Below are positions 27,652 through 43,458 of a stretch of DNA of 43,458 bases, piece after piece. The stretch spans positions 1 through 43,458 of the forward strand of contig JAFIGH010000038.1 in NCBI GenBank assembly GCA_020831525.1, written 5' to 3'. The translations under genes were made by a program, and so were the position numbers. This DNA is from Opitutales bacterium. Its GTDB lineage: Bacteria; Verrucomicrobiota; Verrucomicrobiia; Opitutales; Oceanipulchritudinaceae. A model generated the notes under the pieces. The model was not told the DNA's origin. It saw nothing but the letters and a program-made list of their open reading frames with translations, and made no database searches. Numbering within the stretch: the stretch's first letter is position 1; every line of letters starts with the position of its first letter.

Positions 27652-29277
27652 TCACCCGAGGTGGAGAATGGCGGAAGCCAGCGGGGGAAGTTCGATTTCC
27701 GTTGTTGTCGCGGTGGTCTTGATGCGGGCCTCTCCTAGAAGAACCTTTTTTACAGTGATTGGCAGGGTTAACGCTGCGGTCTTCGTCTCATTGAGGGGGT
27801 TCACGGCAATCAGCGTCCGGCTTCCGTGGCCTTCCCGTTGATAGACGACGGGATAGGGCGCGGCGGGCGCGTTGAGTTGTCTCAAGGGTGCTTCGCTGCC
27901 CAGTTCGGTGTATCTTTTGCGCAGAGCGATGAGCCGCTTGGTGTGGTGGAGGAGGGAGTCGCCGCGGGCAAGTTGGCGGGCAACGGAAGGCCTTTCGGGT
28001 GAAGGGTCCACCGGCAGGTAGAAGTCCTTTTCAGGAGCGGTGGAGAATCCGCAGCCATCGGTCCCGTCCCACTGCATGGGGGTGCGTGCCCCTGTGCGCC
28101 GGTAGGCCCCTTCCTTGCTCGGCAAATCTTCGAGTGAGCGCATCCCGATTTCGTCGCCATAGTAGAGTGTCGGTACCGAGGGGAGGGTGAAGAGAAAGGT
28201 GAGAATGTTCTTCAATTCCGCTTCCGAACGGTCGCGCGAGTAGCGGGGAAGGTCGTGGTTGCCCGTGGGTATGGAGATCAAACCCCGGTTGCCGATGTAG
28301 GCACGGTGTCCCTGCAGTTCGCGGAAGAAAGTCTGCAGTTCACCGTTTCCCCGGGGATTGAAGTAGCTCACATCGCCGCGGTCGAAAATGGTGTATTTGT
28401 TCTCGCCCCGGAACACCTTCATGTAGGAGGCCTCCTCAAAGTGGATCATGAAATCGATGTGAAAACCGGCCTCGATTGCCCGGGAAGGATTGGACCACTC
28501 GGCGATCAATGCTGCCTCGGGGTAGTCGCGGTCCCACCATTGGCGGACTTCCTGCCAGAAACCGGTCATTGCTTCGCGGGCCATGGAGGGATCGTTGCTT
28601 TTGATCAGGGAAGCCGCCATATCCACGCGGAAGCCGTCCACCCCTTTATCGAGCCAAAAGCGCAGGATCCGGAACATTTCCTGCCTGAGTGATTGCACGG
28701 AGGGATGGTCGGTGGGCAATTGCCACGGCAGGCCGGGATCGGGGTCGGCGTAGCCGTAATTGAGGGCGGGCTGGAAATAGAAGAAGTTTGCAAGGTAGTT
28801 GCCGTCGCGCTCGCCGTGTCCATTGATGAACTGGCCGGGGCCGGTCCCTTTGTCGCCGGTGTAAAATGTGGTGTCGGTCCATACGTAGCGGTCGGAATAA
28901 GCGCTCCGCTCATGCCGGCTGGATGCGGTGAACCATGGATGCTGGATAGACGTGTGGCCGGGTACGAAGTCAAGGAGCAGCCGCATCCCGCGCTCATGGA
29001 GCCCCGCAAGCAATGCCTCCAAGTCGCTCATTTTGCCGTAGCGGGGCGCGATCTTGCAGTAGTCGGAGACATCGTAGCCAGCGTCGCGGAACGGAGACTC
29101 GAAAATAGGCGACAGCCAGACTGTTTCAAATCCAAGTTCCCGGATGTAGTCGAGCCGGGACAGAATGCCTCTGAGGTCGCCGATTCCGTCTCCGTTGCTG
29201 TCTTGAAAGCTGGCGGGAAATATCTGGTAAATGGCTGTCTTGCGAAGCCATTCCGGAAAACATGCAGGTGTATCCAT
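27652..29277 (-). CDS. GH13 alpha-glucosidase/alpha-amylase-family enzyme
   Basis: A 541-residue GH13 (alpha/beta)8 enzyme without signal peptide. Conserved regions: I, [10 protein letters not shown] (Asn of the usual DVVxNH replaced by Gly, His108 kept); II, [9 protein letters not shown] with nucleophile Asp219; III, [8 protein letters not shown] with acid/base Glu260; IV, [9 protein letters not shown] with His341-Asp342. The opening ([29 protein letters not shown] type) and QWDG motif in the C-terminal third match oligo-1,6-glucosidase and trehalulose/sucrose-hydrolase relatives. It probably hydrolyses short alpha-glucans in the cytoplasm. It is followed by the receptor gene in the same direction after 155 bases, so cotranscription is possible but not shown. 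Confidence 0.9.
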   Translation of the reverse strand: [541 protein letters not shown]

Positions 29278-29464
29278 GCGGGCCAGTAAGTGAACTCCAT
29301 CGCAGAGTTCCGGGCTTAATTTGTTGTAAGGTCAAATTACGCGGATGCAGCAACGCGGAAGATTTACGATAAAACCCGCGGAAGTGGAGGGAAGGACACG
29401 CATTTCCTCGCCGTGCCGGATGAATAGGGCTTTAAACGGCGGGAAACTCTGGAGCGCCTTTGCC

Positions 29465-32400
29465 ATGATTTCGAACTTCTTTTCGTTGGTGACTCGATTC
29501 TTTCTGTCCGGGCTTCGTCGGTCGGTTTTGTTTCTGTCGGGGGTCGCGGTATTGCCCGCCGCCGGGACCTTGGTGCATGATCCTTTCAGCGACGGCGGGG
29601 TGACCGAGGGCGACGATCCTTATGATGTCCACTGGTTCACCTCGGACAGCACCCATGTTGACTTCACCGTTGTGGAGGACACTGTCCTCGACCCCGAGCC
29701 GCCTCATCGTGTGGCCAACTTCCTCATCAACAACCCGGCGGAGGTGGAGAAAGACGACTACATTTTCTTCGCCCTTCCCGAAACCGTGGAACTGGAAGTC
29801 GGGGAAGCCATCGAAGTAACTTACCGCCTGCGTTTCGAGGGCGGTGCCCCCCGCGCCGATGCCAGCCGGACAGGCCTCTCCCTTGCTTACCGCGCTCCCG
29901 GCGCGAGCCAGAGCCCGTGGGCCCATCCCGGAAACCGGGAGTATTTCTTTTTCACTTCGTTTGGAGCGGATGGATTCGGCGGGAGCATCCGCAAGAGTGC
30001 CGGTGTCCAAATCCTGAACACGGGAACAGTGCTTGGTGCAAACACGCCGACCGTGGACCTTGCAAATGGGGTGGGCACCGTCATTTTCGAAGTGGCGCGC
30101 ATGGACGAGACGACCGTGCGCATCCGCTATGGCCTCAACGGCATGCCCCCGCGGGAGGCGTTTGACAGCAGCGATATCACAACTGCGTTCAGCCACGTCT
30201 TTCTTCGTTACCGGCGGGCGACGTTGCAACCATTGGAGGCTATGCGCATTGATGATATGCGGGTCGTTCTCACAGCCGTCGACCTGACGCCGCCGGAGCC
30301 CCGGACGTGGTATGTTCGGCAGGATGGAAATGACGTGCACGCGGGCGATGATCCAGAGGCCCCATTTCGTACGATCAGCCATGCCCTCGCATGGGCGCGG
30401 GCGGGAGACACCATCGAAATCGGCGGAGGCGTCTATGCGGAGGCGCTCTTCATTCCGTACGCGGGAGAACCGGACGCTCCCATAACCTTGCGTGCCGCGG
30501 CTGCGCCGGAGGGAGGTTTTGAAGAGGTCGTCGTGAACGGGTTCGAACCGGTTCTTCCCGGCGTGAACGGCGTCGGTGAGTGGACGCTTCACGAGGGGGC
30601 GGTTTGGAGGGTTCCGTTGCCGCCGGAGCGCGTGCTTTCGCTCGGCCGAAACCTTGTCGAGGTCGATGGCGAGGTTCTCTTGCCGGCCCGCTGGCCGACC
30701 GCGGGTGCGCCCGTGGACTTTGACCGCCGGTCGATGGCGGAGGCATCCGACGGCAGCGTCGACGCCAGCACGGCGCATGCCCAGCCGCCTTACCCCGGAA
30801 CGAACTTCTATGACGCCACTTACACCGATGACGCCTTGAGTGCATTTTCCGCGGATGCATGGGCCGGTGCGCGTGTCGACTTGTGTGCGGGGCACAACTG
30901 GTGGCCGAAGACCGGCGTAGTGACAGGCAACATGGATGACCAGTTGCATTTTCGCTTTCGCTTCGAGACCAACTGGAATCACGTCATTGACACGCCCAAA
31001 GAGGGGGACCGCTACGCTCTCTGGGGCCACCTCACGGCTCTCGACACGCCGGGGGAGTTTTTTGTCGATGTCCACGGCACCAACGGCCCGCCGGGCATGC
31101 TCTATGTCTGGTTTCCCGATAGCGGCGCTCCTCACGGGCGGGAGGTGTCCATGCTTGCCCGCCAAGGCGCTGTTGTCCTCGGTGATCGGTCGCACATCGT
31201 CATGGAGGGCATCCGCGTTCGCGGCGGCACACTCTCGATGAATGCGGCCTCGCAGTACAATTGCTTCGATCAAGTCGAGGTCGATTACGGAGCTGTCAAC
31301 CGCAACCGCCTCGAACCCGGAGACGGGGCTTCGGTCCTTCTTGCCGGGGACAACCATGTCTTCACCAACGGTCGCGTGGGGCACAGCTATGGACGCTCGA
31401 TCGAGGTGGCCGGAGCTGGCACGGAGGTCAGCAATACGGTTTCGCATGATGCCGGAAGCCACCTCATCACCTTGCATGGTGCCGTTGGTGCCCACGTGGC
31501 CGGCAATACGGTTTACCGCAGCGGAGACACCGCCATCGACATCGGTGCGAAGGGCAGCGTGATTGAATTCAACCACGCCTACCATGCCGGGATGCGCATC
31601 ACGGACATCGCCGTGATGAACACATGGAACAGCGGCGACATGGAGGGCACGGAGATTCGCTACAACTGGGTGCACAGTAACCTCGCTCCGCTGGATTTGA
31701 CCCGCTCGTGGTGGGGAGGGCAGGGCATCCGGCTGGATTCCGGCGGGGCACCCCTCGGTTGCTCGAATGCCCGCATCCACCACAATGTCGTGTGGAACAC
31801 CACGTCGCGGAGTTCGCTTGCTTTTTGGGGTCTCGGGGAGGGGATGGAGAACTTCGGGAACTCACAGATCAAGGTCTACCACAACACGCTTGATGACAGG
31901 CTGGTCTTTGGCGGCAGCGGCTCGGTCGCGGGCGGCGATGTGCGCAACAACGTCGCCCGCGCGTTCAACAATCCGACGGGTTCTCTCGATGGCATCACGT
32001 TCACTGACAATCTCTTCCGCGATGATGCCGTGGCCGGAAATCTTCAGGCCGATCCGGGCTTTGTCTCCGCGCCCAACCGCAATTTTCAACTCCGGCCCGG
32101 GGCCGCCGCCATCGGGACCGGCGCACCCGTTGAAAGTGTCACCGAGTCCGCCCCGCAAAACTATCTCGGGGCCTACAACCACGCCGCCGCTCCGTGGACT
32201 CCGGGTGCGCGCCTCCGCTCCGGCGACCTTCGCCATCTGGTCACCTCCGTGGAAACCGGCCCGCTCGGGCAGACGCGCGTCCTTGTCACCGGTTTGCCGC
32301 CGGGCCGCACGTTTCCCGATGGTTTCGCCATGCGCCTCGACGGGCGCGAGGCGATTTCCCGGGAGGCGCGCTATTTTCCTTCCGAACATGCCGTGACAGG

Positions 32401-34153
32401 CGTCTTCACATTTGATTTTAGCGGTATCGGCGCCGCCGCTACTGTCGAGTTCAGTCTCGACGGGAGCGAATGGGTTGTTCCCGATTCCGCCGTGGTGGCG
32501 CTTCCCGAACCCTCAATTACATCCGCGGGTCCGTTTTTCGGCACCTCCGCCGGTGGGAGCGAGCACGTGATTTTCGGGAATTATTTATCGGGTGGGGCTG
32601 TCCCGCTGCATGCCCTTCGTGTCAGGGGGCTCGCCGGAGCGGATTTCATCGCCGAGGCCATTCCGTGGATTGCCGATACCACTCCGTGGACCGCTGACGG
32701 AATGGGACCGTCGGGGCAGGATCTCCGTTTCTTCTCCTGGGACGGTGAGACCCCCGTGCGGCACCATGTGGAATACGGTATCGGCGGGGACAACACGCTT
32801 ATCTGGCTCAAGTCCGGCGAAGGCCCGGAAGGGGACGTCGTCAGCTTCGAGGACCGCAGCCGTATCTTTCTCGCCTACGGTGATGAAAGTCTGCCGGGCG
32901 GCGACGATCCGGCGGTGCTGTCCGACAGCTTTCCCGCGCTTGTCTCGGCGGACCGGCTTCTTCATCTGCGCGCGCATGACCTCGCCGCCGCGGCCGCGGA
33001 GGACGATCCGGTGAGCCATTGGCCCGACAATTCTCCCTTTGCTCTGCCTGTCTTGCAGGAGGATCCGGTTAGTCAGCCGAAGCTGCGCCTCAACTCCTTC
33101 GGCGGCCTGCCGGCGGTGGCTTTTGACGGAGTGAACGACCACCTCGACGTCAATGGCGCCGCCGGAATCGGAACAGGCTCCGGACGGATCTTTACTGTCT
33201 ACCGGAATCCGGATCCGGGGTCTGTGAGGTGGCAGCGTCTCTACAGTTCGCGCGCCGGTACGGAAGTTTTCGACTATGAAACCGGGTTCTACGCCATCAT
33301 TCCGACCACGAGTGAGGGCGATCCGCTTCCCCGCCCGGCGCCGACGATCCGCGAGATGAACCGGCAGGGCGGATTTTCCGGCGAGAATTTCCGCATCGGG
33401 CGGCGATCCCTTTCCACCGCCGAGCCTTTCCGCGGCGAGATCGCGGAGATGATCGCCTTTTCGGGTGACTTCACGGGCGCTCCCCGTGAGCAGATCCTGC
33501 GGTATTTGCAGCGCAAGTATGGAATCGTGGAGCGGCCGGTGGTGGACCTTTCCGCCAATGAAACGGTGGAACCCCTGCGGGTATTTGTGGGCGGGGAGGA
33601 AGCGCTTTGGGTCAGAAGAGAAAACGATGGCTCACTGCGGTTTGCCGCTCCTCCCTACACCGGGGGAGAGCCGCTTCCAGTTTCCGCCGATGTGACGGTG
33701 CGGCGTGCCGATGGCGCCGAGGCCGTCTTCGCCGGCGGTTACATCTATTCGCTCAGCTACGGCGAATGGGCCGGATCGCTGCCCGAAGATGAGCGTGCGC
33801 CCGGTCATGCGCCGCATGGTCATGGAATTCCCAACCTGCTTCGCTTTGCCTTTGGCGGAGATGCGGATGCGCCGACGGTTCCGGCGGGAATGCCCCATTG
33901 GACGGATACCCCGGAGGGCACTGTCGTCGAGTTCATCCGCCGTGGCGGCGGCCTGATGGAGCACCATGCCTACCGCATGGGGGAACTCCGGTACATTGTG
34001 GAAGTCTCCCCCGACCTACAGGAGTGGACGCCTCTGTCGTGGAATCCGTTTTTCATCGAGGACATTGGAAATGGAACCGAGCGCGTTTGGGTGGAACTGC
34101 CCGCGGACCCGCCCCGTTGGTTTCACCGCATCCGCGTTGTCATGGGTGAATGA
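29465..34153 (+). CDS. Giant secreted beta-helix protein with LamG domain and Verrucomicrobia-type C-terminal module
   Basis: A 1562-residue exported protein. The ATG at 29465 is preferred because a GGAG lies about 11 bases before it and it gives a signal peptide (MISNFFSLVTRFFLSGLRRSVLFLSGVAVLPAAG); 29420 is an alternative. Order of parts: an N-terminal beta-sandwich (about 40-270); a DUF1565-type start of a parallel beta-helix (TWYVRQDGNDVHAGDDPEAPFRTISHALAWA, from about 280) running to about 880; a TIG-like segment (about 1012-1145); a LamG-like domain (about 1158-1357, with AVAFDGVNDHLDV and F-R-G-E-I-A-E-M-I-A-F); and a C-terminal module (HGIPNLLRFAFGG...LRYIVEVSPDLQEW...) like that of the subtilisin. 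Probably a polysaccharide lyase or hydrolase; no catalytic triad can be assigned. Confidence 0.87.
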   Translation: MISNFFSLVTRFFLSGLRRSVLFLSGVAVLPAAGTLVHDPFSDGGVTEGDDPYDVHWFTSDSTHVDFTVVEDTVLDPEPPHRVANFLINNPAEVEKDDYIFFALPETVELEVGEAIEVTYRLRFEGGAPRADASRTGLSLAYRAPGASQSPWAHPGNREYFFFTSFGADGFGGSIRKSAGVQILNTGTVLGANTPTVDLANGVGTVIFEVARMDETTVRIRYGLNGMPPREAFDSSDITTAFSHVFLRYRRATLQPLEAMRIDDMRVVLTAVDLTPPEPRTWYVRQDGNDVHAGDDPEAPFRTISHALAWARAGDTIEIGGGVYAEALFIPYAGEPDAPITLRAAAAPEGGFEEVVVNGFEPVLPGVNGVGEWTLHEGAVWRVPLPPERVLSLGRNLVEVDGEVLLPARWPTAGAPVDFDRRSMAEASDGSVDASTAHAQPPYPGTNFYDATYTDDALSAFSADAWAGARVDLCAGHNWWPKTGVVTGNMDDQLHFRFRFETNWNHVIDTPKEGDRYALWGHLTALDTPGEFFVDVHGTNGPPGMLYVWFPDSGAPHGREVSMLARQGAVVLGDRSHIVMEGIRVRGGTLSMNAASQYNCFDQVEVDYGAVNRNRLEPGDGASVLLAGDNHVFTNGRVGHSYGRSIEVAGAGTEVSNTVSHDAGSHLITLHGAVGAHVAGNTVYRSGDTAIDIGAKGSVIEFNHAYHAGMRITDIAVMNTWNSGDMEGTEIRYNWVHSNLAPLDLTRSWWGGQGIRLDSGGAPLGCSNARIHHNVVWNTTSRSSLAFWGLGEGMENFGNSQIKVYHNTLDDRLVFGGSGSVAGGDVRNNVARAFNNPTGSLDGITFTDNLFRDDAVAGNLQADPGFVSAPNRNFQLRPGAAAIGTGAPVESVTESAPQNYLGAYNHAAAPWTPGARLRSGDLRHLVTSVETGPLGQTRVLVTGLPPGRTFPDGFAMRLDGREAISREARYFPSEHAVTGVFTFDFSGIGAAATVEFSLDGSEWVVPDSAVVALPEPSITSAGPFFGTSAGGSEHVIFGNYLSGGAVPLHALRVRGLAGADFIAEAIPWIADTTPWTADGMGPSGQDLRFFSWDGETPVRHHVEYGIGGDNTLIWLKSGEGPEGDVVSFEDRSRIFLAYGDESLPGGDDPAVLSDSFPALVSADRLLHLRAHDLAAAAAEDDPVSHWPDNSPFALPVLQEDPVSQPKLRLNSFGGLPAVAFDGVNDHLDVNGAAGIGTGSGRIFTVYRNPDPGSVRWQRLYSSRAGTEVFDYETGFYAIIPTTSEGDPLPRPAPTIREMNRQGGFSGENFRIGRRSLSTAEPFRGEIAEMIAFSGDFTGAPREQILRYLQRKYGIVERPVVDLSANETVEPLRVFVGGEEALWVRRENDGSLRFAAPPYTGGEPLPVSADVTVRRADGAEAVFAGGYIYSLSYGEWAGSLPEDERAPGHAPHGHGIPNLLRFAFGGDADAPTVPAGMPHWTDTPEGTVVEFIRRGGGLMEHHAYRMGELRYIVEVSPDLQEWTPLSWNPFFIEDIGNGTERVWVELPADPPRWFHRIRVVMGE

Positions 34154-34196
34154 GCCTGCCGTGCACCGCTTGCAAGCGCCTACCCGCCCGCGCAAA

Positions 34197-34743
34197 ATGG
34201 TGGACGCGGTCGAGCATTTCATTCGCACGTATGTGGAGCCCAGGGAGGGTGCCTTGCTTTCCCGAGCGCTCAAAGAGTTTGCAAGTGATGAGAGCCTCCT
34301 GGTCCACATGCGGGAGAAGTCGCGCGAGGCGATCCGTATTCAGGTGCGCCTCTTCGCAAGGTTTCTTGGAGCCGATGCGCGCATGTCGCAGGTCCTTCCC
34401 CGGCATTTCGGAAAACCTCCATGCGTGGCTGGTCGACCACGCAGTCCGGCGACCACCCATCATCCCGCCCAATTTCCGCAAACTCTTCGAGCGGGTCCGC
34501 CGGTCGACCGGCATCGAATCATGGACCCGCGACGAGGGACGCCATACGGCCCTCACCTACCACTATGCCGTGAGCGGTCTGAAAGCGACAACTGCCGCCT
34601 GGGCAGGCAATTCGCCCCAGATTCTCGACAGCAAGTATCGCGGCCTCGCAACGGAGGAGGACGCCCGGAGATATTGGTCCATTACACCTGATTCCATCGC
34701 GTCTACTCCGGTCGTCGACTTCCCGGCCGCCTCCGCATCGTGA
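34197..34743 (+). pseudogene. Tyrosine recombinase (integrase) remnant, internally deleted and frameshifted
   Basis: Two frames together give the ends of a phage-type integrase. Frame 3 from 34197 encodes an N-terminal core-binding start (MVDAVEHFIRTYVEPREG...EAIRIQVRLFARFLG). Near 34402 the recognisable sequence passes to frame 1 and reads SENLHAWLVDHAVRRPPIIPPNFRKLFERVRR, then GRHTALTYHYAVSGL (the R-H box of the catalytic domain), and DSKYRGLATEEDARRYWSI, which includes the likely nucleophilic tyrosine. The first catalytic arginine and most of the middle are missing, about half of a usual 380-400-residue protein. It cannot be active. Its presence just before the CARF regulator and restriction genes marks the edge of an old mobile island. 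Confidence 0.75.
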
Positions 34744-35026
34744 CCCCATCCCCGTCGCCAACCTCGCTGCTGTATGACACCTTCCATCCTGTTGATGGAA
34801 GGGGGCAGGTAAACGGGGCAGGGGGGCCGCTTTTTATCGATGCTTGATGAGGTTGAGGAGGGGCCCGGCTGAGGAGATAAAGACGCTCTTTCGGGTGCGC
34901 GTGGCAGACAGACTCTGCCAACCCCGTTTCTCACTAACCTCGTTTCGGTGAGATGAGGACGAGTTTGGACAGGCATGGCTGTTTTAACACTTGTATTAAG
35001 ATATTTTGATGCCTACCTAAATCAAA
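34744..35026. other. Intergenic region with hairpin, upstream of CARF-sigma54 regulator
   Basis: Contains a perfect 9-base stem (CCTTCCATC, loop CTGTT, GATGGAAGG, 34780-34802) without a T-run, then G-rich tracts (34801-34832), then an AT-rich stretch (34980-35026) that probably carries the regulator's promoter. No ORF in it is convincing. Confidence 0.45.
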
Positions 35027-36535
35027 ATGAATATCCTGCTCACCTTTACCGGAACCCACGACCCCGGTCAACCCGGGTCGACGGAGGAGGCCTATCGTCC
35101 CGGTCCGGTGCTTTCGGTCGTCGCGGAAAGGGAGTGGGACGCCGTTTACCTTTTCTCCACTCCCCGGATGGTGGACCACACGCGACAGACCGAAGAGCGC
35201 ATCCGCCGAATGCGCCCGGAGTGCCGCGTTGAAATCGTCGATGCGCCGTTGTCGGATCCCACCAACTATGCGGGCATCTTCAACCAACTGCGCAAAGGAT
35301 TCGGGAAAATTTCCAAACAGCACCCCGACGGTCATTACTTTATCTCCGTATCCTCCGGCACCCCGCACATGCATGCCGCGTGGCTTCTGCTCGCAGCCAG
35401 CGGAGAGATTCCCGCCACGCTTCTGCAGGTCGATCCGCCGGAGTTCGTGCGCGAAGGAAAATCCCGCCTGCGCGAGATCGATTTCAGCCGTCGCGAGTTT
35501 CCGCGCATTTCCCGCGAGGAAATGGGGCACCTTGCGGCAACGGACAAAGATGACCTCGACAGTACTCTCCTTGCCGCCTGCCGGGAGATCGGATTGGTGG
35601 GCGGCGACGCGCGCTTTTACGACGCCCTTCGCCGGGCCGCCGTCCTCGCCGGTTATCCGGATAGCCATGTCCTTCTCCTCGGCGAAACGGGAGCGGGAAA
35701 GGAATACTTCAGCAAGATCATCCACCGCCTGAGCCCCCGCCGCCGCAGGGAAATGGTCGTCGTCAATTGCAGCAGCATCCCGGAGAATCTCTTTGAGAGT
35801 CAGCTCTTTGGTCACAGGAAGGGGGCCTTTACCGGAGCCATTACCGACCACAAAGGGAAGTTCCAAACCGCCGACGGCGGCATTCTTTTTCTTGATGAGA
35901 TCGGTGAGTTGCCGGTGGGCGTTCAGGCCAAGCTTCTGCGCGCTTTGGAACAGGGCGAGATTGAGCCGCTGGGCCAAACCAAGCCCATCAAGGTGAACGT
36001 CCAGGTGGTCGCGGCCACCAATCGCAACCTGCGCAAGATGGTCGCCGAGGGCACCTTTCGTGAGGATCTCTATCAGCGCTTCACCGCCACGGTGCAAATT
36101 CCGCCCCTGCGCGAGCGGAGAACCGACATTCCGACTCTCGCCACCTTCATGCTCGATGCATGGAACCGCAAGAACGGAGGCTCCCGCCGCCTCTCCACGT
36201 CTGCTTTACGCGCCCTCGCTGAGCACCCCTGGCCGGGCAACGTGCGCGAACTGCGAAAGGTCATAGAGCAGTCCGCCATGTTCGCGCGAAGCGACCGCAT
36301 CACGCCGAAAGACCTGAACTTCGATGCCTCCGGCACCCTCAATGCGTCCGATCTCCCCCTGCCTGAGCCCGGACCGGGTTTTGACCTCAACACTTACCTC
36401 GATGACCTCAAGCACCGCATTGTCGAAAAGGCCCTCGCCCAAGCCGATGGCGTCCAGGCCCGCGCCGCCCGTGCCCTTGGCTTGTCTCCTCAGGTCATGA
36501 ACCAATACCTCAAGACAAAAAGGATCAACGGATGA
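35027..36535 (+). CDS. CARF-domain sigma-54-dependent transcriptional activator (RtcR-like)
   Basis: A 502-residue enhancer-binding protein. Residues 1-165 form a CARF/RtcR-type Rossmann sensor: the hydrophobic first strand NILLTFTGTHDPG, VYLFSTPR, and the ligand-loop motif SSGTPHMHAAWLLLA (109-123), aligned with the T-T-G-T-H segment of RtcR. Such domains bind cyclic oligonucleotides or RNA-end ligands. The AAA+ domain has Walker A GETGAGKE (219-226), the sigma-54 contact loop GAFTGA (266-271), Walker B LFLDEIGE, and PPLRERRTDIP with EHPWPGNVRELR. A Fis-type helix-turn-helix closes the protein (466-502). Everything needed for sigma-54 activation is intact. Unlike classical RtcR, no rtcB/rtcA lies nearby; the next gene is hsdR, preceded by a matching sigma-54 promoter. 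Confidence 0.93.
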   Translation: MNILLTFTGTHDPGQPGSTEEAYRPGPVLSVVAEREWDAVYLFSTPRMVDHTRQTEERIRRMRPECRVEIVDAPLSDPTNYAGIFNQLRKGFGKISKQHPDGHYFISVSSGTPHMHAAWLLLAASGEIPATLLQVDPPEFVREGKSRLREIDFSRREFPRISREEMGHLAATDKDDLDSTLLAACREIGLVGGDARFYDALRRAAVLAGYPDSHVLLLGETGAGKEYFSKIIHRLSPRRRREMVVVNCSSIPENLFESQLFGHRKGAFTGAITDHKGKFQTADGGILFLDEIGELPVGVQAKLLRALEQGEIEPLGQTKPIKVNVQVVAATNRNLRKMVAEGTFREDLYQRFTATVQIPPLRERRTDIPTLATFMLDAWNRKNGGSRRLSTSALRALAEHPWPGNVRELRKVIEQSAMFARSDRITPKDLNFDASGTLNASDLPLPEPGPGFDLNTYLDDLKHRIVEKALAQADGVQARAARALGLSPQVMNQYLKTKRING

Positions 36536-36545
36536 CGAATATTCC

Positions 36546-36586
36546 ATCAATTTTTGTTGATAAACAAGATCCCTTCGAGTGTCGAA
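36546..36586. promoter_or_regulatory. Candidate upstream activating sites (two inverted repeats)
   Basis: ATCAA-TTTTTG-TTGAT (36546-36561) and TTCGA-GTG-TCGAA (36574-36586) lie about 110 and 80 bases before the expected transcription start of the sigma-54 promoter, the usual distance for enhancer sites. They are short and their sequences differ, so this is a proposal. The first could instead weakly terminate the regulator gene. Confidence 0.35.
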
Positions 36587-36634
36587 TTGAATCTCAAGAT
36601 ACTGTAAGTCAGGTGATTAAGGAAAATGAACGAG

Positions 36635-36651
36635 TTGGCACGGGCCTTGCC
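36635..36651 (+). promoter_or_regulatory. Sigma-54 (-24/-12) promoter for the hsdR operon
   Basis: TTGGCACGGGCCTTGCC matches the sigma-54 consensus (TTGGCACG-N4-TTGC) at all conserved positions. The GG (36637-36638) and GC (36649-36650) doublets are separated by exactly 10 bases. Transcription would start near 36662, giving a leader of about 93 bases before the ATG at 36755. It lies 100 bases after the gene for a sigma-54 activator. I saw no other equally good match on the plus strand while reading. Confidence 0.82.
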
Positions 36652-36754
36652 CTATGCAAGCCATTCCATGGAGTCCTGGTTTTTCAACTGCTTCCGTCAT
36701 CGCCACGATCCTTCCGCATCGTCGGCAACAGCGGAGCCCCATCCGGCCACCATC

Positions 36755-39700
36755 ATGGAATCGCGTAACTTCGAGTTTCTCCGGGAAGAATTTCGCGAAC
36801 TGGCCGACTTGGCGGCTTTCGCCGAGTCCTACGCGTACTCCGACCCGGTGAGCGCCTTGGTCAAGCTGCGGACCTTCGCCGAGTTTCTCGTCAAAGCTGT
36901 ATTCGCCCACCACCGTCTTGAGTTCGGCTATCAGAACACGCTGAACGATCTGCTCAACGATGCCTCGTTCAAGGCAATGACGCCGGCTGTCATCCAGGAC
37001 AAGCTGCACCTCCTCCGGATAAAGGGAAACCACGCCGCCCACGGAACGCTCTATAAGGAAAGCGAAGCCAAGATTCCCGATTTCCTCAAGGAAGCGCACG
37101 ACCTTGGTCGGTGGTTGGTGCTTTCGGTCTCCGGTTGTCCTGCCGGGAGTTTGCCGACGTGGCATCCGATCCCCCGACCCGAGATCGATTCGACCGAATC
37201 ACTGCACCGCAAGACAAAGACGGCCCTCGAAAAAATCGCCCAGCAGGAGGCGCTCATGGCCAAACTGCTCGCCGACTTGGAAGCCGCCCGTGCTCAGGCC
37301 GCCAGCGCAAAGAAGTCGGAAGCCGAACTGGCCGACATCCTGAAACAGGCTCAGCAATCCGCTTCTGTTCTCGAATTCAGCGAGGAAGAGACACGCCTCA
37401 AACTCATTGACGAGCACCTCCTCGGGGCGGGTTGGAAGGTTGGCGTGCGCGGCGTCAGCACACCGGAAGTCGGGCAGGAAGTCGAGGTACGCGATCAACC
37501 CACCGCGTCGGGGAAAGGCTACATCGACTACGTGCTCTATGATCCCGCCAGCGGAAAGCCCCTGGCCATCATAGAGGCGAAGAAGACAGCTGAAGATGCG
37601 GACAAGGGGAAGATGCAGGCCCGGTATTACGCCGACGGCCTTGAGAAGAGCGCAGGCATCCGCCCGGTGATCTTCTACACAAACGGCTACGAGATTTTCA
37701 TGTGGGACGACGCAAAGGGCGAGCCGCCACGTTTGCTCCACGGGTTTTACTCCCTCGACAGCCTGCAATACCTCCACTTTCAGCGCAAAGAACGCGAACC
37801 GGTGCTCGGCGCGCTGAATCCGGTCGAACGCATCGTCGACCGCCTTTACCAGATTGAGGCGATCAAGCGCGTGACCGAGACTTTTGACAAGCGGCGGCGC
37901 AAGGCCCTAATCATCCAGGCCACGGGCACCGGCAAGACGCGCGTTGCCATCGCCTTGGCGGAACTCATGGTACGGGCAAAGTGGGCCAAACGCATCCTTT
38001 TCCTTTGCGACCGACGCGAACTCCGCAAGCAGGCCCGCGACGCCTTCGAGGAGTTTCTCCCCGGCGAGCCCCGCATCTATGTGAGCGCCCGCACGTCGGC
38101 GGACCGCAACCAGCGCATCTACCTTGCCACCTACCCGGCGATGATGAAGTGCTTCCAGAATTTCGATGTCGGCTTCTTTGATCTGATCATTGCCGATGAG
38201 TCCCACCGCAGCATCTACAACCGCTACCGCGATCTCTTCCGCTGGTTCGACGCCTTCCAGGTCGGTCTCACCGCCACCCCCGTGAAGTTTATCTTCCGCA
38301 ACACCTACCGGCTCTTCGAGTGCGAAAACGAGGATCCCACCTTCAACTATCCCTACGAGGAAGCCATCGCGCACGAGCCCCCCTATCTCTGCCCCTTCAG
38401 AGTTATCAAGCACACCACGAAGTTTCTCCGCGAAGGAATCAAATACACGGAACTTTCGCAGGCCCAGCGGGAACAGCTGGAAGACCAGGTCGATGACTCG
38501 GAGGCGGTCGACTACGAGCGCGAGCATGTCAGCCGCAAGGTCTTCAACGAAGACACCGACCGGAAAATCCTGCAGAACCTCATGCAGAACGGCCTCCGCA
38601 ATGCCGACGGCACCCGCCTCGGCAAAACCATCGTCTTTGCCCGCAACCACACCCATGCGAAGCAGCTCGTAAAGCTCTTCGACAAGATGTATCCGCAGTT
38701 CGGAGGCGACTTCTGTTTGCGCATCGACAACTATGAGCCCCGCGCCGAACAGCTCATCGACGACTTCAAAACCAACGACGAGAGCAAGAACCTCACCATC
38801 GCGATCTCCGTCGACATGCTCGACACCGGCATCGACATCCCGGAGATCGTCAACCTTGTCTTCGCCAAGCCCGTCAACTCCTACGCCAAATTCTGGCAAA
38901 TGATTGGCCGCGGAACCCGTCTCTGCCGGGATCTGTTCGGCCCCGGCAAAGACAAGAGCGTCTTCTACATCTTCGACCACTGGGGCAATTTCGAATATTT
39001 CGACGAACTTGAGGAGGAAGCCGCCCCTTCGCCGTCAAAGAGCCTTACGCAGCTGCTCTTCGAGGCCCGCATCGCGCTCGGGGAAACCGCCCTCAAGGCG
39101 CAATCGCCCGAAGCGCTCAAGCTTGCCACCAGCCTGTTGGCTGCCGATGTGGCGGCGCTTCCGGAAGACTGCCTTTCCGTTAAGGAAAAATGGCGCGAGA
39201 TCCATGGCCTTCGCAAGGATGGCGTGATCGAAGGTTTCCAGCCCGCCACCGTTGCCGTGCTCAAGCGGGAGATCGCTCCGCTCATGCAATGGCGCGACGT
39301 GCGCGGAGCGGAGGCCGCCCTCGGCTTCGACCTGCTCACCACCCGCCTGCAATCCGCGCGTCTTCTCTCCTCCCCGCAGGCCGATGATTTGCGCGACCGG
39401 CTCATCGGGCAAGTCTCCCAGTTGCCGGTCAATCTCCGTCAGGTGGCGGACAAACTGCCGCAGATCAATCAGGCGAAGAGCGCCGCCTTCCACGAAACCG
39501 CCACCACCGCCGATCTCGAGGAGATCCGCAACGGGCTGCGCGGGATCATGAAATACCGCACCCGCCTAGCCACCGTTGGATCGCAGCCCCTCTTTCTCAA
39601 TGTTGCCGAAGACCCGGCGGAATACCGCACCGAAGTGCACAAGGTGAAGATGCACGGGCTCGACCTCGCCGCCTACCGCAACCGGGTCGAATCCGTCCTC

Positions 39701-40096
39701 CGCGAACTCCTCGATCAAAGCGACGCCCTCTGCAAAATACGCGCGGGGTTGCCGGTCGCCCCGGAGGACCTCGACCAACTCGCTTCCGAGGTGCTCCTCA
39801 TGGACCCCGACCTTCACCTCGGGGAGTTGCTTGTGCACTACCCGAACAAAGCGCACTCCTCAAGGGCCACATTGCCCGCTACGGTGCCATTGAGCTGGAG
39901 AAACTTTGGGAAACGCCCTTCACCACTCTCCACGCCGAAGGCATCGACGGCGTCTTCACCGACTCCGGGCAGGTCGACGACCTCCTTTCCCTGCTCACCC
40001 ACCTCAACGAGAAAGCCGGCTGATTTTATCCTTTTAAAAAGGAGAATTTTACTTCACTTTATCCCCCATGGAAGGCGAAATACAGCACTTGCTTGA
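36755..40096 (+). CDS. hsdR: Type I restriction enzyme R subunit (HsdR), C-terminus frameshifted
   Basis: Start 36755 (MESRNFEFLREEF) is chosen because the longer ORF from 36626 spans the sigma-54 promoter. Residues about 10-130 are a DUF4145-like helical domain, then a coiled coil (about 155-215). The nuclease domain follows with Asp258 in GYIDYVLYD and Glu274-Ala-Lys276 in IIEAKKT. Next is the SF2 translocase: Walker A ATGTGKT (389-395), DESH (481-484), VGLTATP, and MIGRGTRLCRDLFG. The C-terminal region is of the EcoEI type. Near 39846 (AACAAAGCGCAC) a base appears lost: the other frame continues ALLKGHIARYGAIELEKLW and ends in NEKAG at 40023, 44 bases before the next gene, while this frame runs on into it. 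Normally HsdR cuts DNA only in complex with HsdM and HsdS. Confidence 0.88.
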   Translation: MESRNFEFLREEFRELADLAAFAESYAYSDPVSALVKLRTFAEFLVKAVFAHHRLEFGYQNTLNDLLNDASFKAMTPAVIQDKLHLLRIKGNHAAHGTLYKESEAKIPDFLKEAHDLGRWLVLSVSGCPAGSLPTWHPIPRPEIDSTESLHRKTKTALEKIAQQEALMAKLLADLEAARAQAASAKKSEAELADILKQAQQSASVLEFSEEETRLKLIDEHLLGAGWKVGVRGVSTPEVGQEVEVRDQPTASGKGYIDYVLYDPASGKPLAIIEAKKTAEDADKGKMQARYYADGLEKSAGIRPVIFYTNGYEIFMWDDAKGEPPRLLHGFYSLDSLQYLHFQRKEREPVLGALNPVERIVDRLYQIEAIKRVTETFDKRRRKALIIQATGTGKTRVAIALAELMVRAKWAKRILFLCDRRELRKQARDAFEEFLPGEPRIYVSARTSADRNQRIYLATYPAMMKCFQNFDVGFFDLIIADESHRSIYNRYRDLFRWFDAFQVGLTATPVKFIFRNTYRLFECENEDPTFNYPYEEAIAHEPPYLCPFRVIKHTTKFLREGIKYTELSQAQREQLEDQVDDSEAVDYEREHVSRKVFNEDTDRKILQNLMQNGLRNADGTRLGKTIVFARNHTHAKQLVKLFDKMYPQFGGDFCLRIDNYEPRAEQLIDDFKTNDESKNLTIAISVDMLDTGIDIPEIVNLVFAKPVNSYAKFWQMIGRGTRLCRDLFGPGKDKSVFYIFDHWGNFEYFDELEEEAAPSPSKSLTQLLFEARIALGETALKAQSPEALKLATSLLAADVAALPEDCLSVKEKWREIHGLRKDGVIEGFQPATVAVLKREIAPLMQWRDVRGAEAALGFDLLTTRLQSARLLSSPQADDLRDRLIGQVSQLPVNLRQVADKLPQINQAKSAAFHETATTADLEEIRNGLRGIMKYRTRLATVGSQPLFLNVAEDPAEYRTEVHKVKMHGLDLAAYRNRVESVLRELLDQSDALCKIRAGLPVAPEDLDQLASEVLLMDPDLHLGELLVHYPNKAHSSRATLPATVPLSWRNFGKRPSPLSTPKASTASSPTPGRSTTSFPCSPTSTRKPADFILLKRRILLHFIPHGRRNTALA

Positions 40097-41396
40097 GGAA
40101 AAGCTCGCCACCGCCCTCGCGGTTGAGCCGCCTGTGCTGACGCGGCGCGAGATCCGCTTGCCGAAGATTCCCGGCAAGGCACTCGCCGTTGTGGGCATGC
40201 GCCGCAGCGGCAAAACGAGCTTCCTTTGGCAGTGCTTGAGCGACCTCCTCACGGCCGGTGCAAAGCGGGAAACGCTTTTGCTTCTGAATTTCGAAGATGA
40301 CCGCCTCGCCGGAATCGACGCGGAGGCCCTCAGTTTTATGCTGGAAGCGTATTACCGTCTGCACCCGGAACTCCGTGATCGCGAGACCGTGACTCTCTTC
40401 CTCGACGAAATTCAGCTGGTCAAAGGGTGGGAAACCTTCGCCCGGCGCATTTTGGATACGGAGAAAGTGCGGCTCTTTCTCTCCGGTTCCTCGGCCTCCA
40501 TGCTCAGCCGGGAAGTGGCTACGAGCATGCGCGGGCGCGCTCTCGAAGTCACGGTGTTCCCCTTCAGTTTCCGCGAAGCCCTCGCCCATCGCGGAGAGCT
40601 GCCCGGGAAGCCATGGGCGCTCCTGCCGAAACAGCGGCGGTCCGCGCTTGCGCGCGCTTTTCACGATTACCTCACCGAAGGCGGTTTTCCCGAAGCGCAG
40701 GGGGTTCCCGCGCGCGACCGCCGCCTCCTCCTGCAGAGTTATGTCGATGTGGCCGTCCTGCGCGACGTGATTGAGCGTCACGGGGTTTCCAATCCAGTCG
40801 CCCTGCGCTGGCTCCAACGCCACTTGCTCGGGGCCCCCGCCGCCCCCTTTAGCATTCAGAAATTCTACGATACGCTCAAATCACAGGGCATCCCGGTGGC
40901 CAAGGACACCCTCCATGCCTTTCTCAGCCATCTCGAAGACGCCTTCCTGATCCGCACGACTTCGATTTTTTCCGCTTCCGAGCGCCAGCGAATGGTCAAT
41001 CCGCGGATGGCCTATCCCATTGATTCCGGATTGATCCCGGTCTACGAACGCACCCGGCGCGCCAACCTCGGCCATGCCCTCGAAACCGCTGTTTTGGTGG
41101 AGCTGCTCCGGCGCGGCTGCGAAGTTCACTATCTGCGCACGCCCGATGGTTACGAGGTGGATTTCCATGCCGTCGATCCCGAGGGGCACAGCCAGCTCAT
41201 CCAAGTCTGTGCCGATGCCTCCGATGAGGCCACCTGGCAGCGCGAAGTCCGCGCTCTCGTGAATGCCCAAACCCACCATTCCCAGGCCCAGGCCATCCTT
41301 CTGCTCCTCCACCCGCCTCCAACCGCGCCCCGCGAACCCTCCTCCATTCAGCTCCAATACGCCCTTCCATGGTTCCTCGAAACCCCGGAGTCCTAA
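40068..41396 (+). CDS. AAA_14/DUF4143 ATPase
   Basis: A 442-residue protein. The N-terminal AAA domain has Walker A GMRRSGKT (43-50), Walker B VTLFLDEIQ (Asp113-Glu114), and the sensor segment LFLSGSSASMLSREVATSMRGRALEVTVFPFSFREAL, highly typical of this family. The C-terminal DUF4143 domain contains the NLGHALETAVLVELLRRGCEVHYLRTPDGYEVDF stretch, whose E...D-F...Q-V pattern resembles a PD-(D/E)XK nuclease fold (Glu in HALET, Asp in VDF, and IQVC). These ATPases are common beside restriction and toxin-type genes, but their role is not settled. It follows hsdR closely and precedes the HsdM remnant by 14 bases, so it belongs to the same operon. Confidence 0.88.
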   Translation: MEGEIQHLLEEKLATALAVEPPVLTRREIRLPKIPGKALAVVGMRRSGKTSFLWQCLSDLLTAGAKRETLLLLNFEDDRLAGIDAEALSFMLEAYYRLHPELRDRETVTLFLDEIQLVKGWETFARRILDTEKVRLFLSGSSASMLSREVATSMRGRALEVTVFPFSFREALAHRGELPGKPWALLPKQRRSALARAFHDYLTEGGFPEAQGVPARDRRLLLQSYVDVAVLRDVIERHGVSNPVALRWLQRHLLGAPAAPFSIQKFYDTLKSQGIPVAKDTLHAFLSHLEDAFLIRTTSIFSASERQRMVNPRMAYPIDSGLIPVYERTRRANLGHALETAVLVELLRRGCEVHYLRTPDGYEVDFHAVDPEGHSQLIQVCADASDEATWQREVRALVNAQTHHSQAQAILLLLHPPPTAPREPSSIQLQYALPWFLETPES

Positions 41397-41410
41397 CCGT
41401 CGCCCTTCCC

Positions 41411-41803
41411 ATGACCCGTTCCGAAATCAAATCGAAAATCGACGCCCTATGGCTGGACTTCCACTCCGGCGGGATCACCAACCCGATCACCGTCATCGAG
41501 CAGATTTCCCAGCCGGACAAAAACGACCTGCCGGATCTGATCAAAAGTTGGACCTCGGAACGCGAAACGAGGAAGGGGAAAGAAACGCCGAAGGCGGAAG
41601 CCGGAGCACGGAGCGGCAAATGCTTCCGCGTTCCGGGTTCCGAGATCCGGGATAACAAATACGACCTCTCCCTCAACCGCTACAAAGAGACCCAACACGA
41701 AGAAGCCATCTACGACCCGCCCAAAGTCATCCTCCAGCGCATGCGCACCTTGGAGCATGAGATTCTGGCGGATATCGACGAACTGGAGGGGATGCTCAAA
41801 TGA
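41411..41803 (+). CDS. HsdM remnant: type I methyltransferase with the catalytic core deleted in frame
   Basis: A 130-residue ORF made of the two ends of HsdM. Residues 1-32 (MTRSEIKSKIDALWLDFHSGGITNPITVIEQI) are the family's N-terminus. The rest (QPDKNDLPDLIKSW..., FRVPGSEIRDNKYDLSLNRYKE, YDPPKVILQRMRTLEHEILADIDELEGML) is the usual C-terminal tail. Everything between, including the S-adenosylmethionine motif and the NPPF/Y motif, is absent, about 350-400 residues. The frame is kept and the stop TGA overlaps the ATG of fic (ATGA at 41800-41803), so translation coupling survives. It cannot methylate DNA. It might still bind partner subunits through its ends, or be a decay product. Confidence 0.85.
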   Translation: MTRSEIKSKIDALWLDFHSGGITNPITVIEQISQPDKNDLPDLIKSWTSERETRKGKETPKAEAGARSGKCFRVPGSEIRDNKYDLSLNRYKETQHEEAIYDPPKVILQRMRTLEHEILADIDELEGMLK

Positions 41804-42915
41804 ACGCGGTCGTCTATCATCACGGCAAATTTCCGCCGACTGGAATCGACTGGGAGCGCTTGGTCCCCCTGATTGGCCCAGCCACGCTGGCGCTTGGAGA
41901 TTTCCGGGGACTCCTCGACGCCGTGCCTGACGCTTGGGTGTTGCTCTCTCCCTTGACAACTCAGGAAGCGGTACTTTCCAGCCGAATCGAAGGCACACAG
42001 GCCACTTTGGGCGAGGTGCTCGAGTTTGAAGCCGGCGGAAAGCCTCCCCAGCAAACACCCGAAAAGATTAATGATATTGAGGAGGTCATCAATTATCGGG
42101 TGGCGATTCACGAGGCGGCCAGGCGGCTCGCCGAGCTGCCGTTGTGCGGCCGTCTACTAAAGGAGACACACGCCATTCTGATGCGGGGTGTCCGTGGTCG
42201 GGACAAGGCCGCCGGCCAATTCAAGACGACCCCCAACGCCATCGGAGCACCGGGCTGCACTGCCGAAACCGCAAAATTTCTTCCGATTGAGCCAGCGTAT
42301 CTGGACGATGGAATCTCCCTATGGGAAAACTACCTGCACAGTGATCAACCGGATTTGCTCATCCAGTTGGCGGTGGTCCATGCCGAATTTGAGGCGCTGC
42401 ACCCCTTTCTCGATGGAAATGGTCGCCTTGGACGGATGCTCGTTCCGCTCTTTCTATACGAGCGGAAGGTGCTTAGCCACCCGGCTTTCTACATCAGCGA
42501 ATACCTCGAGCGACATCGCGAGGAATACTATGAGCGCCTCTTGGCCGTCTCCAGAGACAACGATTGGACCGGCTGGATCGCCTTCTTCCTGCGCGCCATG
42601 GCGGAGCAGGCCCGTGTCAACACCAAGCGTGCCAGGGCAATTTTGCAACTCTATGAGGACCGCAAACGCTGGATCGTCGAGCGGACCCATTCCCAGTATG
42701 CCGTTGCCGCTCTCGATTTTATGTTTCGGCAACCCATCTTTTCCGGCTCCGACTTCAGCAAAGCGCAAGGAATCCCCAAACCAACCGCCCGACGGATTTT
42801 GGCAACAATTCGTGAAGCGTTGCTGCGCGAGTTGCGACCCGCAGCCGGGCAACGACCCGCCATCTATGCCTATCGTGAGCTTTTGAACGCCGCAGAAGGA
42901 AAGGAGGCCTTCTAG
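41800..42915 (+). CDS. Fic-family (class II) AMPylase-like protein
   Basis: A 371-residue Fic protein with the full motif HPFLDGNGRLGR (201-212). The N-terminal inhibitory-helix motif S-x-x-x-E-G is present as SSRIEG (Ser60-Gly65), which makes it a class II enzyme that keeps itself in check. The flap region lies before the core (KTTPNAIG). A C-terminal winged-helix segment (ISGSDFSKAQ-like, GIPKPTARRILATIREALL) suggests DNA binding or self-control. Fic proteins transfer AMP, or other nucleotides, to target hydroxyls. Genes of this type are frequently placed between hsdM and hsdS in type I loci, as expected from the remnant upstream; here hsdS is missing. Start codon overlaps the preceding stop. 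Confidence 0.93.
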   Translation: MNAVVYHHGKFPPTGIDWERLVPLIGPATLALGDFRGLLDAVPDAWVLLSPLTTQEAVLSSRIEGTQATLGEVLEFEAGGKPPQQTPEKINDIEEVINYRVAIHEAARRLAELPLCGRLLKETHAILMRGVRGRDKAAGQFKTTPNAIGAPGCTAETAKFLPIEPAYLDDGISLWENYLHSDQPDLLIQLAVVHAEFEALHPFLDGNGRLGRMLVPLFLYERKVLSHPAFYISEYLERHREEYYERLLAVSRDNDWTGWIAFFLRAMAEQARVNTKRARAILQLYEDRKRWIVERTHSQYAVAALDFMFRQPIFSGSDFSKAQGIPKPTARRILATIREALLRELRPAAGQRPAIYAYRELLNAAEGKEAF

Positions 42916-43458
42916 TGGCTCATTCTTTCGCACAACTGAACCACAAGACACTTTGCTGCTCGTGGATGCACCACAATCCGTTTTGTGAATCATATTTTCC
43001 ATTTCGTGAACCACAAAGCGCCTTGTCGCTCACCGGTGAGCCACAAGCGGATCGCTCGGAAGACGCGGAATCCAGCAGTCGAAAACCGGAAGTCTATCGC
43101 CTTGAACAGGAAAACAACGCCGCATCGGCTAATGCAATCCACCGACGTAGGCATTCCCGTGGGACAAAAACCGACCCGTTTTTGTCTCAGGAAGCGGAAT
43201 CCAAAACTATGCAAGAGTTTGGTAAATGGTCACTTTGGCAACCCTGACGCACAGGCCGGGCTCGGACCCTGGCGAAGGTACCACGAAGATCAAGCCATCC
43301 TCTGGGAGCACCCCTTCGGGGACGGCCTTCGCGAAGCGACGGAACCGGCTCCCGACCGAGCCACCCGCACCCCTATCAACTTGACTCTCCTGGGAGGTCG
43401 GGACGTAGTCCCTCCCTGTCGGGATCACAACTAACAACCGAAGCAATCCTGTCCAAGC
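42916..43458. other. Gene-free tail of the island
   Basis: About 540 bases without a convincing gene. ORFs here have no family look, and no hsdS target-recognition sequence could be found. The first part carries short spaced repeats (next entry). The end carries a small inverted element, GGGAGG...CCTCCC, around GTCGGGACGTAGTCCC (about 43395-43420). Confidence 0.5.
42938..43046 (+). repeat. Helically phased short repeats (GAACCACAA-like)
   Basis: CCACAA occurs at 42941, 42971, 43011 and 43041, with a degenerate form (GTGAATCATA, core at about 42990) between. The intervals are 30, about 20, about 20 and 30 bases, multiples of one helical turn. Three of them are preceded by GA or GAA/GAG and followed within 8-10 bases by TTG. 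This could be a row of protein binding sites on one DNA face, or chance. Confidence 0.35.

Follow-up and report, generated by a model that had tools for sequence, protein, structure and literature searches.

Restriction–modification (RM) systems are usually regarded as always on, and sigma-54 promoters stay silent until an activator acts on them. The locus described here raises the question of whether the first can be placed under the control of the second. In a 43,458-nucleotide stretch of DNA from an Opitutales bacterium (Verrucomicrobiota; contig JAFIGH010000038.1), which we analysed whole and call the window, a gene for a CARF-domain transcriptional activator is followed on the same strand by hsdR, and between the two lies a short sequence, TTGGCACGGGCCTTGCC, at 36635-36651 of the + strand. 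Is this sequence a sigma-54 promoter, and does the neighbouring sensor fire it? Judging from comparisons across homologous loci, we predict with high confidence that it is such a promoter, and control by the adjacent CARF activator seems very likely; the full reading, in which the upstream activator drives a sigma-54 promoter at this position in response to an alarm, appears highly probable.

The published sigma-54 consensus is TGGCAC-N5-TTGC, with GG at -24 and GC at -12 (PMC2725144). Read directly from the window, the sequence has GG at 36637-36638 and GC at 36649-36650 with 10 bases in between, the arrangement that defines such elements; its last base, C, and its G+C-rich spacer are off consensus. 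It lies 99 bases beyond the activator stop (ORF end 36535) and about 120 bases upstream of the true hsdR start at 36755, hsdR being the next gene, so that the initial annotation was accurate in describing a near-consensus site with 10-base spacing about 100 bases past the activator. No other TGGCAC-N5-TTGC without mismatch occurs in the window. A matrix with hand-set weights based on the consensus gives it 17.7 of 20.5 bits, the maximum on both strands of the window (runner-up, 14.0). An independent position-specific scoring matrix (PSSM), built from 29 Salmonella sigma-54 sites (PMC3844500), scores it at 10.8 bits, which ranks fifth in the window, and all 29 training sites reach at least 15.0; scores as high as that of the window site occur 319 times per 10.6 Mb of random strand, or about 0.7% for a 220-base gap. 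In the organism's own 5.3-Mb genome the exact core is found nine times, compared with 14 for a reversed control pattern, and six of the nine lie well within other ORFs. By itself the motif is only moderately above chance, and these genome and PSSM scans show that it is not rare. The case rests on homology: the motif stands far beyond chance because 74 of 80 homologous loci have a corresponding site.

Table 1. Features of the locus in window coordinates
Feature	Position	Strand	Basis or remark
CARF bacterial enhancer-binding protein	35027..36535	+	PF06956, PF22208, PF00158 and PF02954 above Pfam cut-offs; PADLOC PDLC01995
Candidate enhancer (UAS) dyad ATCAA-N6-TTGAT	36546..36561	.	Inferred; centre 82.5 bases before T of TGGC
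Sigma-54 (-24/-12) promoter (predicted) TTGGCACGGGCCTTGCC	36635..36651	+	Sequence, score, 74/80 homologous loci
Predicted transcription start	36662..36662	+	C of the -12 GC counted as -12
hsdR, Type I restriction subunit	36755..40096	+	78.6% identity to L022 HsdR up to 39855-39862
AAA_14/DUF4143 ATPase	40068..41396	+	Between hsdR and the hsdM remnant
hsdM remnant	41411..41803	+	First 33 and last ~90 residues fused in frame
Fic/DOC family protein (SoFic-like)	41800..42915	+	After the hsdM remnant

The product of the activator gene has an N-terminal CARF domain of the RtcR/Csm6 type, a sigma-54 AAA+ domain (GETGAGKE, GAFTGA) and a Fis-type HTH. It matches the PADLOC model PDLC01995 (RtcR_PspF2) at E=2e-124 over profile positions 1-480 of 481 and agrees with what defines that group, having CARF, AAA+ (GAFTGA) and HTH domains at full length next to RM genes (hsdR follows, though decayed). 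Against the RtcR equivalog NF038308 it scores 335.6 bits, with a cut-off of 650, and neither RtcA nor RtcB was found among the nine neighbouring proteins scanned (27652-43247). At E 0.01, a CARF profile of the subgroup to which it belongs retrieves two Csm6 chains from the PDB and nothing else (best E=6.6e-6). The sigma factor, whose absence from the genome had been raised beforehand as a ground for rejecting the promoter, is present and intact (PF04552, E=8e-60), including the RpoN box ARRTVAKYR.

The evidence that carries the promoter comes from related loci elsewhere in bacteria. A CARF-motif scan of 84,980 species genomes gave 436 relatives, and the best 80 of these were all examined; they are mostly gammaproteobacterial, the query having been a Pseudomonas protein, and are related to one another. 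Counting sites of at least 10 bits on the coding strand between -60 and +250 of the activator stop, 74 of these best 80 loci have one (exceptions: L124, L126, L153, L155, L158 and L166), and in 71 of the 80 it falls within -20 to +60 of the stop. In the same loci the reverse strand yields 0/80 and the interior of the activator gene 1/80, with 3.7/80 expected from dinucleotide shuffles. The distance from GG to GC, start to start, is 12 in the 74 loci, and any other distance from 5 to 24 is found in at most 14. The Salmonella PSSM finds 72/80, versus 0/80 on the reverse strand. Kinship was controlled for by clustering: with loci grouped at 70% identity the site is present in 30 of 34 clusters, and at 60% in all 12. 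Sigma-54 activators that lack the CARF domain and match only in the AAA+ part were tried as a further control (32 loci), and 2 of the 31 examined reach 10 bits, one of them inside the activator gene. The gene that follows is commonly a restriction gene, with an hsdR start no more than 120 bases from the activator stop in 61/80 and some hsd gene downstream in 65/80; the Stutzerimonas locus L096, for example, has hsdR, hsdM and hsdS behind its promoter.

Plasmids carry the same arrangement. Eight plasmid CARF-activator loci were examined, out of 27 records with at least 80% coverage, and every one has a site, scoring between 9.2 and 15.5 bits (reverse-strand best at most 8.8 in seven). It is followed by hsdR, hsdM and hsdS in that order in Vitreoscilla, Vibrio coralliilyticus and Pseudomonas luteola, and by an unannotated hsdR-like start and then pieces of hsdM and hsdS in Azotobacter; in Hymenobacter the RM genes lie farther downstream, in Rhodoferax and Polaromonas the genes are those for VWA, phosphatase, kinase and AAA proteins, and the Vibrio halioticoli record is unannotated. 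The conservation in homologous loci on which the initial annotation had staked its claim is therefore found in 74/80 loci of the genome scan and 8/8 plasmid loci, with exceptions in the window's own subgroup (L022, degenerate; L222 and L023, none). In L087 and L092 the same kind of activator stands ahead of VWA, PP2C, protein kinase and AAA genes, not RM genes, so the switch seems common to several defence-like cassettes.

Closer to home, 45 genomes of a sample from the same phylum have a CARF match, and sites were examined in a fetched subset. In one set of 17 loci, 16, the window among them, have sequence past the activator stop. Besides the window, six of 15 reach 12 bits (L075, L077, L081, L082, L083 and L084), L080 and L085 score 9.6 and 9.5 bits, and seven of the 15 have no 8-bit site (L022, L023, L025, L026, L076, L078 and L079). 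The site is followed by hsdR in L075 and L077, that of L077 lacking the G of the -12 element. A model of the window's own CARF subgroup (A4) has 10 members, six from 372 genomes and four from 288, of which nine were examined. Five of the nine have sites of at least 12 bits, at similar offsets from the stop: +100 in the window, +100 in L221, +109 in L223, +135 in L225 and +133 in L084. The site precedes hsdR in L223 and csm1 in L084. L022, the closest relative with intact hsdRMS, has an activator 52% identical to that of the window and a degenerate element, TGGCATAGGAGATGGT, at +110, without the -12 GC; L222 and L023 have no site among the nine, and L224 is a broken activator gene. L022 and L221 also share a similar short ORF that comes first after the site (METFTVTEIIDGDTF in L022, MATFTVSHIVDGDTF in L221) and is missing from the window; it is putative and reads like a small nuclease. 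Genome contigs searched with P0001 alone and viral contigs searched with model A4 gave no relative.

A sigma-54 activator works from an enhancer, and the spacer between activator and promoter contains a candidate. Inverted repeats centred 82.5-85.5 bases before TGGC are present in four of six subgroup loci: ATCAATTTTTGTTGAT in the window, ATCAAATTTCTTTGAT in L221, ATCAACTCAAGTTGAT in L223 and ATAAACTGTAGTTTAT in L022. The distance was set from the window and L022 before L221, L223 and L225 were fetched; L225 and L084 have no dyad there. On its own the repeat of the window is weak (shuffle p=0.14), those of L221, L223 and L022 having p values of 0.019, 0.0008 and 0.0046. Dyad and promoter together occur once in the organism's genome and in 4/387 phylum-sample genomes. 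The activators of the window and L221 are 74.7% identical as proteins, so the two loci are not independent, and their codon positions agree at 402, 434 and 221 of 502. The 100-base spacer is identical at 54/100 positions, spread over codon positions as 18/33, 17/34 and 19/33, and looks non-coding. The blocks kept in it are much of the dyad and GAGTTGGCA, which look like footprints given that third positions agree at 221/502 and the spacer at 54/100 with no codon-position bias. In the 74 loci, scanning the DNA upstream of the promoter for palindromes of any kind gave no enhancer peak close to it; the one strong peak, about 850 bases upstream, matches by distance and codons the part of the gene that encodes Walker A and was discounted as an effect of the codons. 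Many of the loci L094-L173 have a different inverted repeat, 5-24 bases after the T of TGGC and centred on -12 (for example GGTCCT-N6-AGGACC). Its sequence changes from locus to locus, and counts in a single register suggest pair covariation (210/441 pairs; permutation mean 162, maximum 188), which is weak without the commonest group (137; mean 112, maximum 141).

In the gammaproteobacterial members, further elements appear to be embedded in the activator frame. Among 51 aligned activators (L094-L147 with a site, L131 excluded), synonymous codon choice is strongly constrained in two stretches. In the first, Q is CAA in 47/48 (39% overall), I is ATT in 37/37 (46%) and D is GAT in 50/51 (66%); in the second, A is GCA in 45/48 (22% overall) and L is CTT in 37/38 (15%). 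The element in the first stretch is identified by WATCAANNNNTTR, which we take to be the IHF consensus; it is found 164-186 bases before TGGC in 37/71 loci, and ATCAANNNNTTR within the same stretch in 52/71. In the rest of the 1300 upstream bases, the full consensus is confined to isolated loci. Its positions form helically phased groups at 164-166, 174-177 and 186, spaced by roughly one turn of the DNA. Some 350 bases before the promoter, L094-L147 have the second constrained element, AT-rich and spanning the KKIS-AEAKNLIL codons, a candidate enhancer; considered as an inverted repeat it was rejected, the pattern being unspecific (34/71). Neither of these elements is seen in the window, where no IHF consensus is present between 35901 and 36640. 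We infer that in gammaproteobacterial members the instructions for DNA-looping sigma-54 activation may be encoded within the gene of the activator itself. The RtcR-driven rtcBA promoter of E. coli is likewise built from a UAS, an IHF site and a -24/-12 element (PMC9650030), a likeness that speaks for our main reading.

What the promoter precedes in the window is a different matter. Homology to HsdR proteins starts at 36749-36755, and the ATG at 36755 reads M-E-S-R-N-F-E-F, much like L022, L075, L077 and L223; the longer ORF start at 36626 is therefore wrong, as the initial annotation had argued, and the predicted 5' leader of hsdR is about 93 bases. The gene itself has a deletion of about 42 residues and a frameshift near 39855-39862, with the natural C-terminus resuming in another frame at 39856-40017, and the EcoEI_R_C domain of L022, L075 and L077 is absent from its product. 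The hsdM remnant has no N6-methyltransferase core, whereas HsdM is intact in L022 and L075, and no hsdS was recognised up to the contig end at 43458, L022 HsdS having no match in the window. Neither an intact HsdR nor an HsdM core, both needed for a functional Type I system, is found in the window; L022 has hsdR, hsdM and hsdS in that order with the expected Pfam domains. Elsewhere in the genome there are eight N6_Mtase matches, representing other hsdM-like genes, and the one compared is an unlikely partner because it is only about 35% identical to L022 HsdM. With a DUF4143 ATPase gene and a Fic gene interleaved among the hsd remnants, the region resembles a decaying or rebuilt RM island. The promoter thus precedes a decayed RM system, and both real decay and assembly faults are possible; the restriction function of this copy has probably been lost. 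The proposed tie between the CARF sensor and a restriction operon has support in the family, where 74/80 homologous loci keep the motif; in the window the operon itself is decayed in hsdR and hsdM.

Could the motif be something other than a promoter worked by its neighbour? It might be no more than ordinary G+C-rich gap sequence that matches by chance, as might be expected from a core less frequent in the genome than its reversed control, with most copies well inside ORFs, from an independent score below that of every Salmonella site and from the degenerate element of L022. We regard this as very improbable, since homologues have the site at the same place and on the same strand, with none on the other, and the sites of L221, L223, L225 and L084 recur at +100 to +135. 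The idea that the bases are merely coding, belonging to the hsdR ORF in its long form from 36626 or else to a small ORF at 36532-36768, has still less to commend it and we find it barely credible: both frames are open, and in L221 an overlapping ORF occupies that same frame as the small one, but HsdR homology begins only beyond the motif, and the small ORF has no Pfam match and codon positions that evolve alike. That small ORF (78 amino acids, with an ATGA overlap with the activator stop, spanning the promoter) was rejected as a gene on its lack of a Pfam match and of a coding signal in comparison with L221. Another enhancer-binding protein might instead be the main one to fire the promoter, with the CARF neighbour acting elsewhere. 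The genome has eight activator matches, of which the two listed besides the window's own cover only AAA+ and HTH, and the enhancer is a candidate; the retention of activator and promoter as a pair in 74/80 loci, and the single occurrence of dyad plus promoter in the genome, at this very locus, make this quite improbable.

A more serious alternative, to which we give somewhat less than even weight, is that the promoter is real but a relic, no longer selected for restriction and left with the DUF4143 ATPase and Fic genes as its sole targets, or with no useful target at all. The lesions in hsdR, the in-frame loss of the hsdM core, the lack of a recognisable hsdS and the poor prospects of the compared genomic HsdM as a partner all point this way. 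On the other side, the activator frame and the promoter are intact, the downstream genes are collinear and close-packed, and the deletions may have arisen recently or through faulty assembly. A relic promoter would qualify the reading of a CARF-driven sigma-54 switch more than it would contradict it.

The subgroup also touches type III CRISPR systems. A CARF sigma-54 activator with a -24/-12 site lies directly ahead of csm1 in L084 (4919-5971) and, outside the subgroup, directly ahead of cmr2 in L082 (5688-8339), both by Pfam. Since the sensor of the subgroup is of the Csm6 kind and its sites stand ahead of hsdR (window, L223) or csm1/cas10 (L084), one may speculate that an alarm like the cyclic oligonucleotides of type III CRISPR is sensed by the sigma-54 activator, which responds by turning on the transcription of genes for DNA restriction. 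We consider this doubtful; if true, a second messenger from one immune system would arm another through gene expression. Models of Csm1 and Cmr2 gave no match above cut-off in the organism's own genome, so under this proposal the ligand would have to be supplied by an invading element or in some other way. The single weak match to these models (model positions 7-147) lies in an ORF that by eye resembles RNase Y, and on these two models signalling by cyclic oligonucleotides within the organism's genome was rejected.

How much of this is new? RtcR is a CARF-AAA+-HTH activator that works on a sigma-54 promoter with an enhancer and an IHF site (PMC9650030, PMC9879122, PMC7790460); in vitro, RtcR that lacks its CARF domain is reported to be constitutively active (PMC9650030). 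The window resembles the RtcR/rtcBA systems of E. coli and Salmonella in its activator and sigma-54 promoter, with an enhancer and IHF site as the wider parallel, but RtcR is transcribed divergently from its targets and serves RNA repair, whereas the activator here lies upstream and codirectional, with hsdR next; it also falls far under the RtcR equivalog cut-off, and its subgroup CARF profile finds only Csm6 in the PDB. Makarova et al. reported in 2014 that RtcR-like CARF-AAA+-HTH proteins often lie beside RM systems and are likely sigma-54 activators of downstream genes (PMC4012209). PDLC01995, which we infer to be that RM-linked group, places the window's protein in the same family and neighbourhood. 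The assertion that restriction genes are rarely sigma-54 dependent consequently fails for this family, both the RM link and sigma-54 activation having been proposed in that paper. The main text of PMC4012209 does not contain the word 'promoter'; the present analysis adds the promoter at its fixed position, the elements embedded in coding sequence, IHF among them, and the dyad of the subgroup. RtcR homologues are likewise described at the head of CoCoNuT and RM superoperons, with UAS binding proposed (PMC11090510); the window shares with these a CARF activator gene that leads a row of defence genes but, unlike them, has no McrBC or CoCoNuT domain among the nine window proteins scanned. In the accessible text of that paper promoters are mentioned once, in general terms, and we found no -24/-12 element there. 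RptR offers another parallel in its transcriptional control of a Type I RM defence island, but it is a repressor acting at a TAGCTA site, whereas the window has a sigma-54 activator (PMC12255303). In the open-access literature we found no description of a sigma-54 promoter ahead of a Type I RM system. At the protein level the window belongs to a known family; of its regulatory anatomy we found no description in that literature.

It is well established that enhancer-binding proteins act on closed complexes, contact sigma-54 through GAFTGA and use ATP. Starting from what was computed here, namely the promoter sequence, its family-wide placement, rpoN and the activator domains, a plausible course of events can be outlined. 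Sigma-54 RNA polymerase would wait on 36635-36651 as a closed, silent complex, and the CARF activator would bind an enhancer between its own stop and the promoter, for which the dyad at 36546-36561 is the candidate. On phage infection or RNA damage, the CARF domain would sense an alarm ligand, most plausibly derived from RNA; the AAA+ ring would then touch sigma-54 through its GAFTGA loop, spend ATP and open the promoter. In this way hsdR and the genes behind it would be expressed only on alarm, presumably when infection strikes. In the organism itself, what we see is probably a surviving switch that now stands before a broken hsdR-hsdM pair, an ATPase gene and a Fic gene.

A prediction made ten years ago from gene neighbourhoods, that CARF activators lie by RM systems, can now be tested as a cis-regulatory unit that has a defined promoter and a candidate enhancer; in gammaproteobacteria an IHF site and another constrained element are added within the activator frame. 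The promoter also provides a direct reporter for finding the CARF ligand. As such promoters do not fire unless an activator acts on them, restriction arranged in this way would be an inducible response, and the presence of this layout in many bacteria suggests that some restriction systems may be triggered by alarm and not always on.
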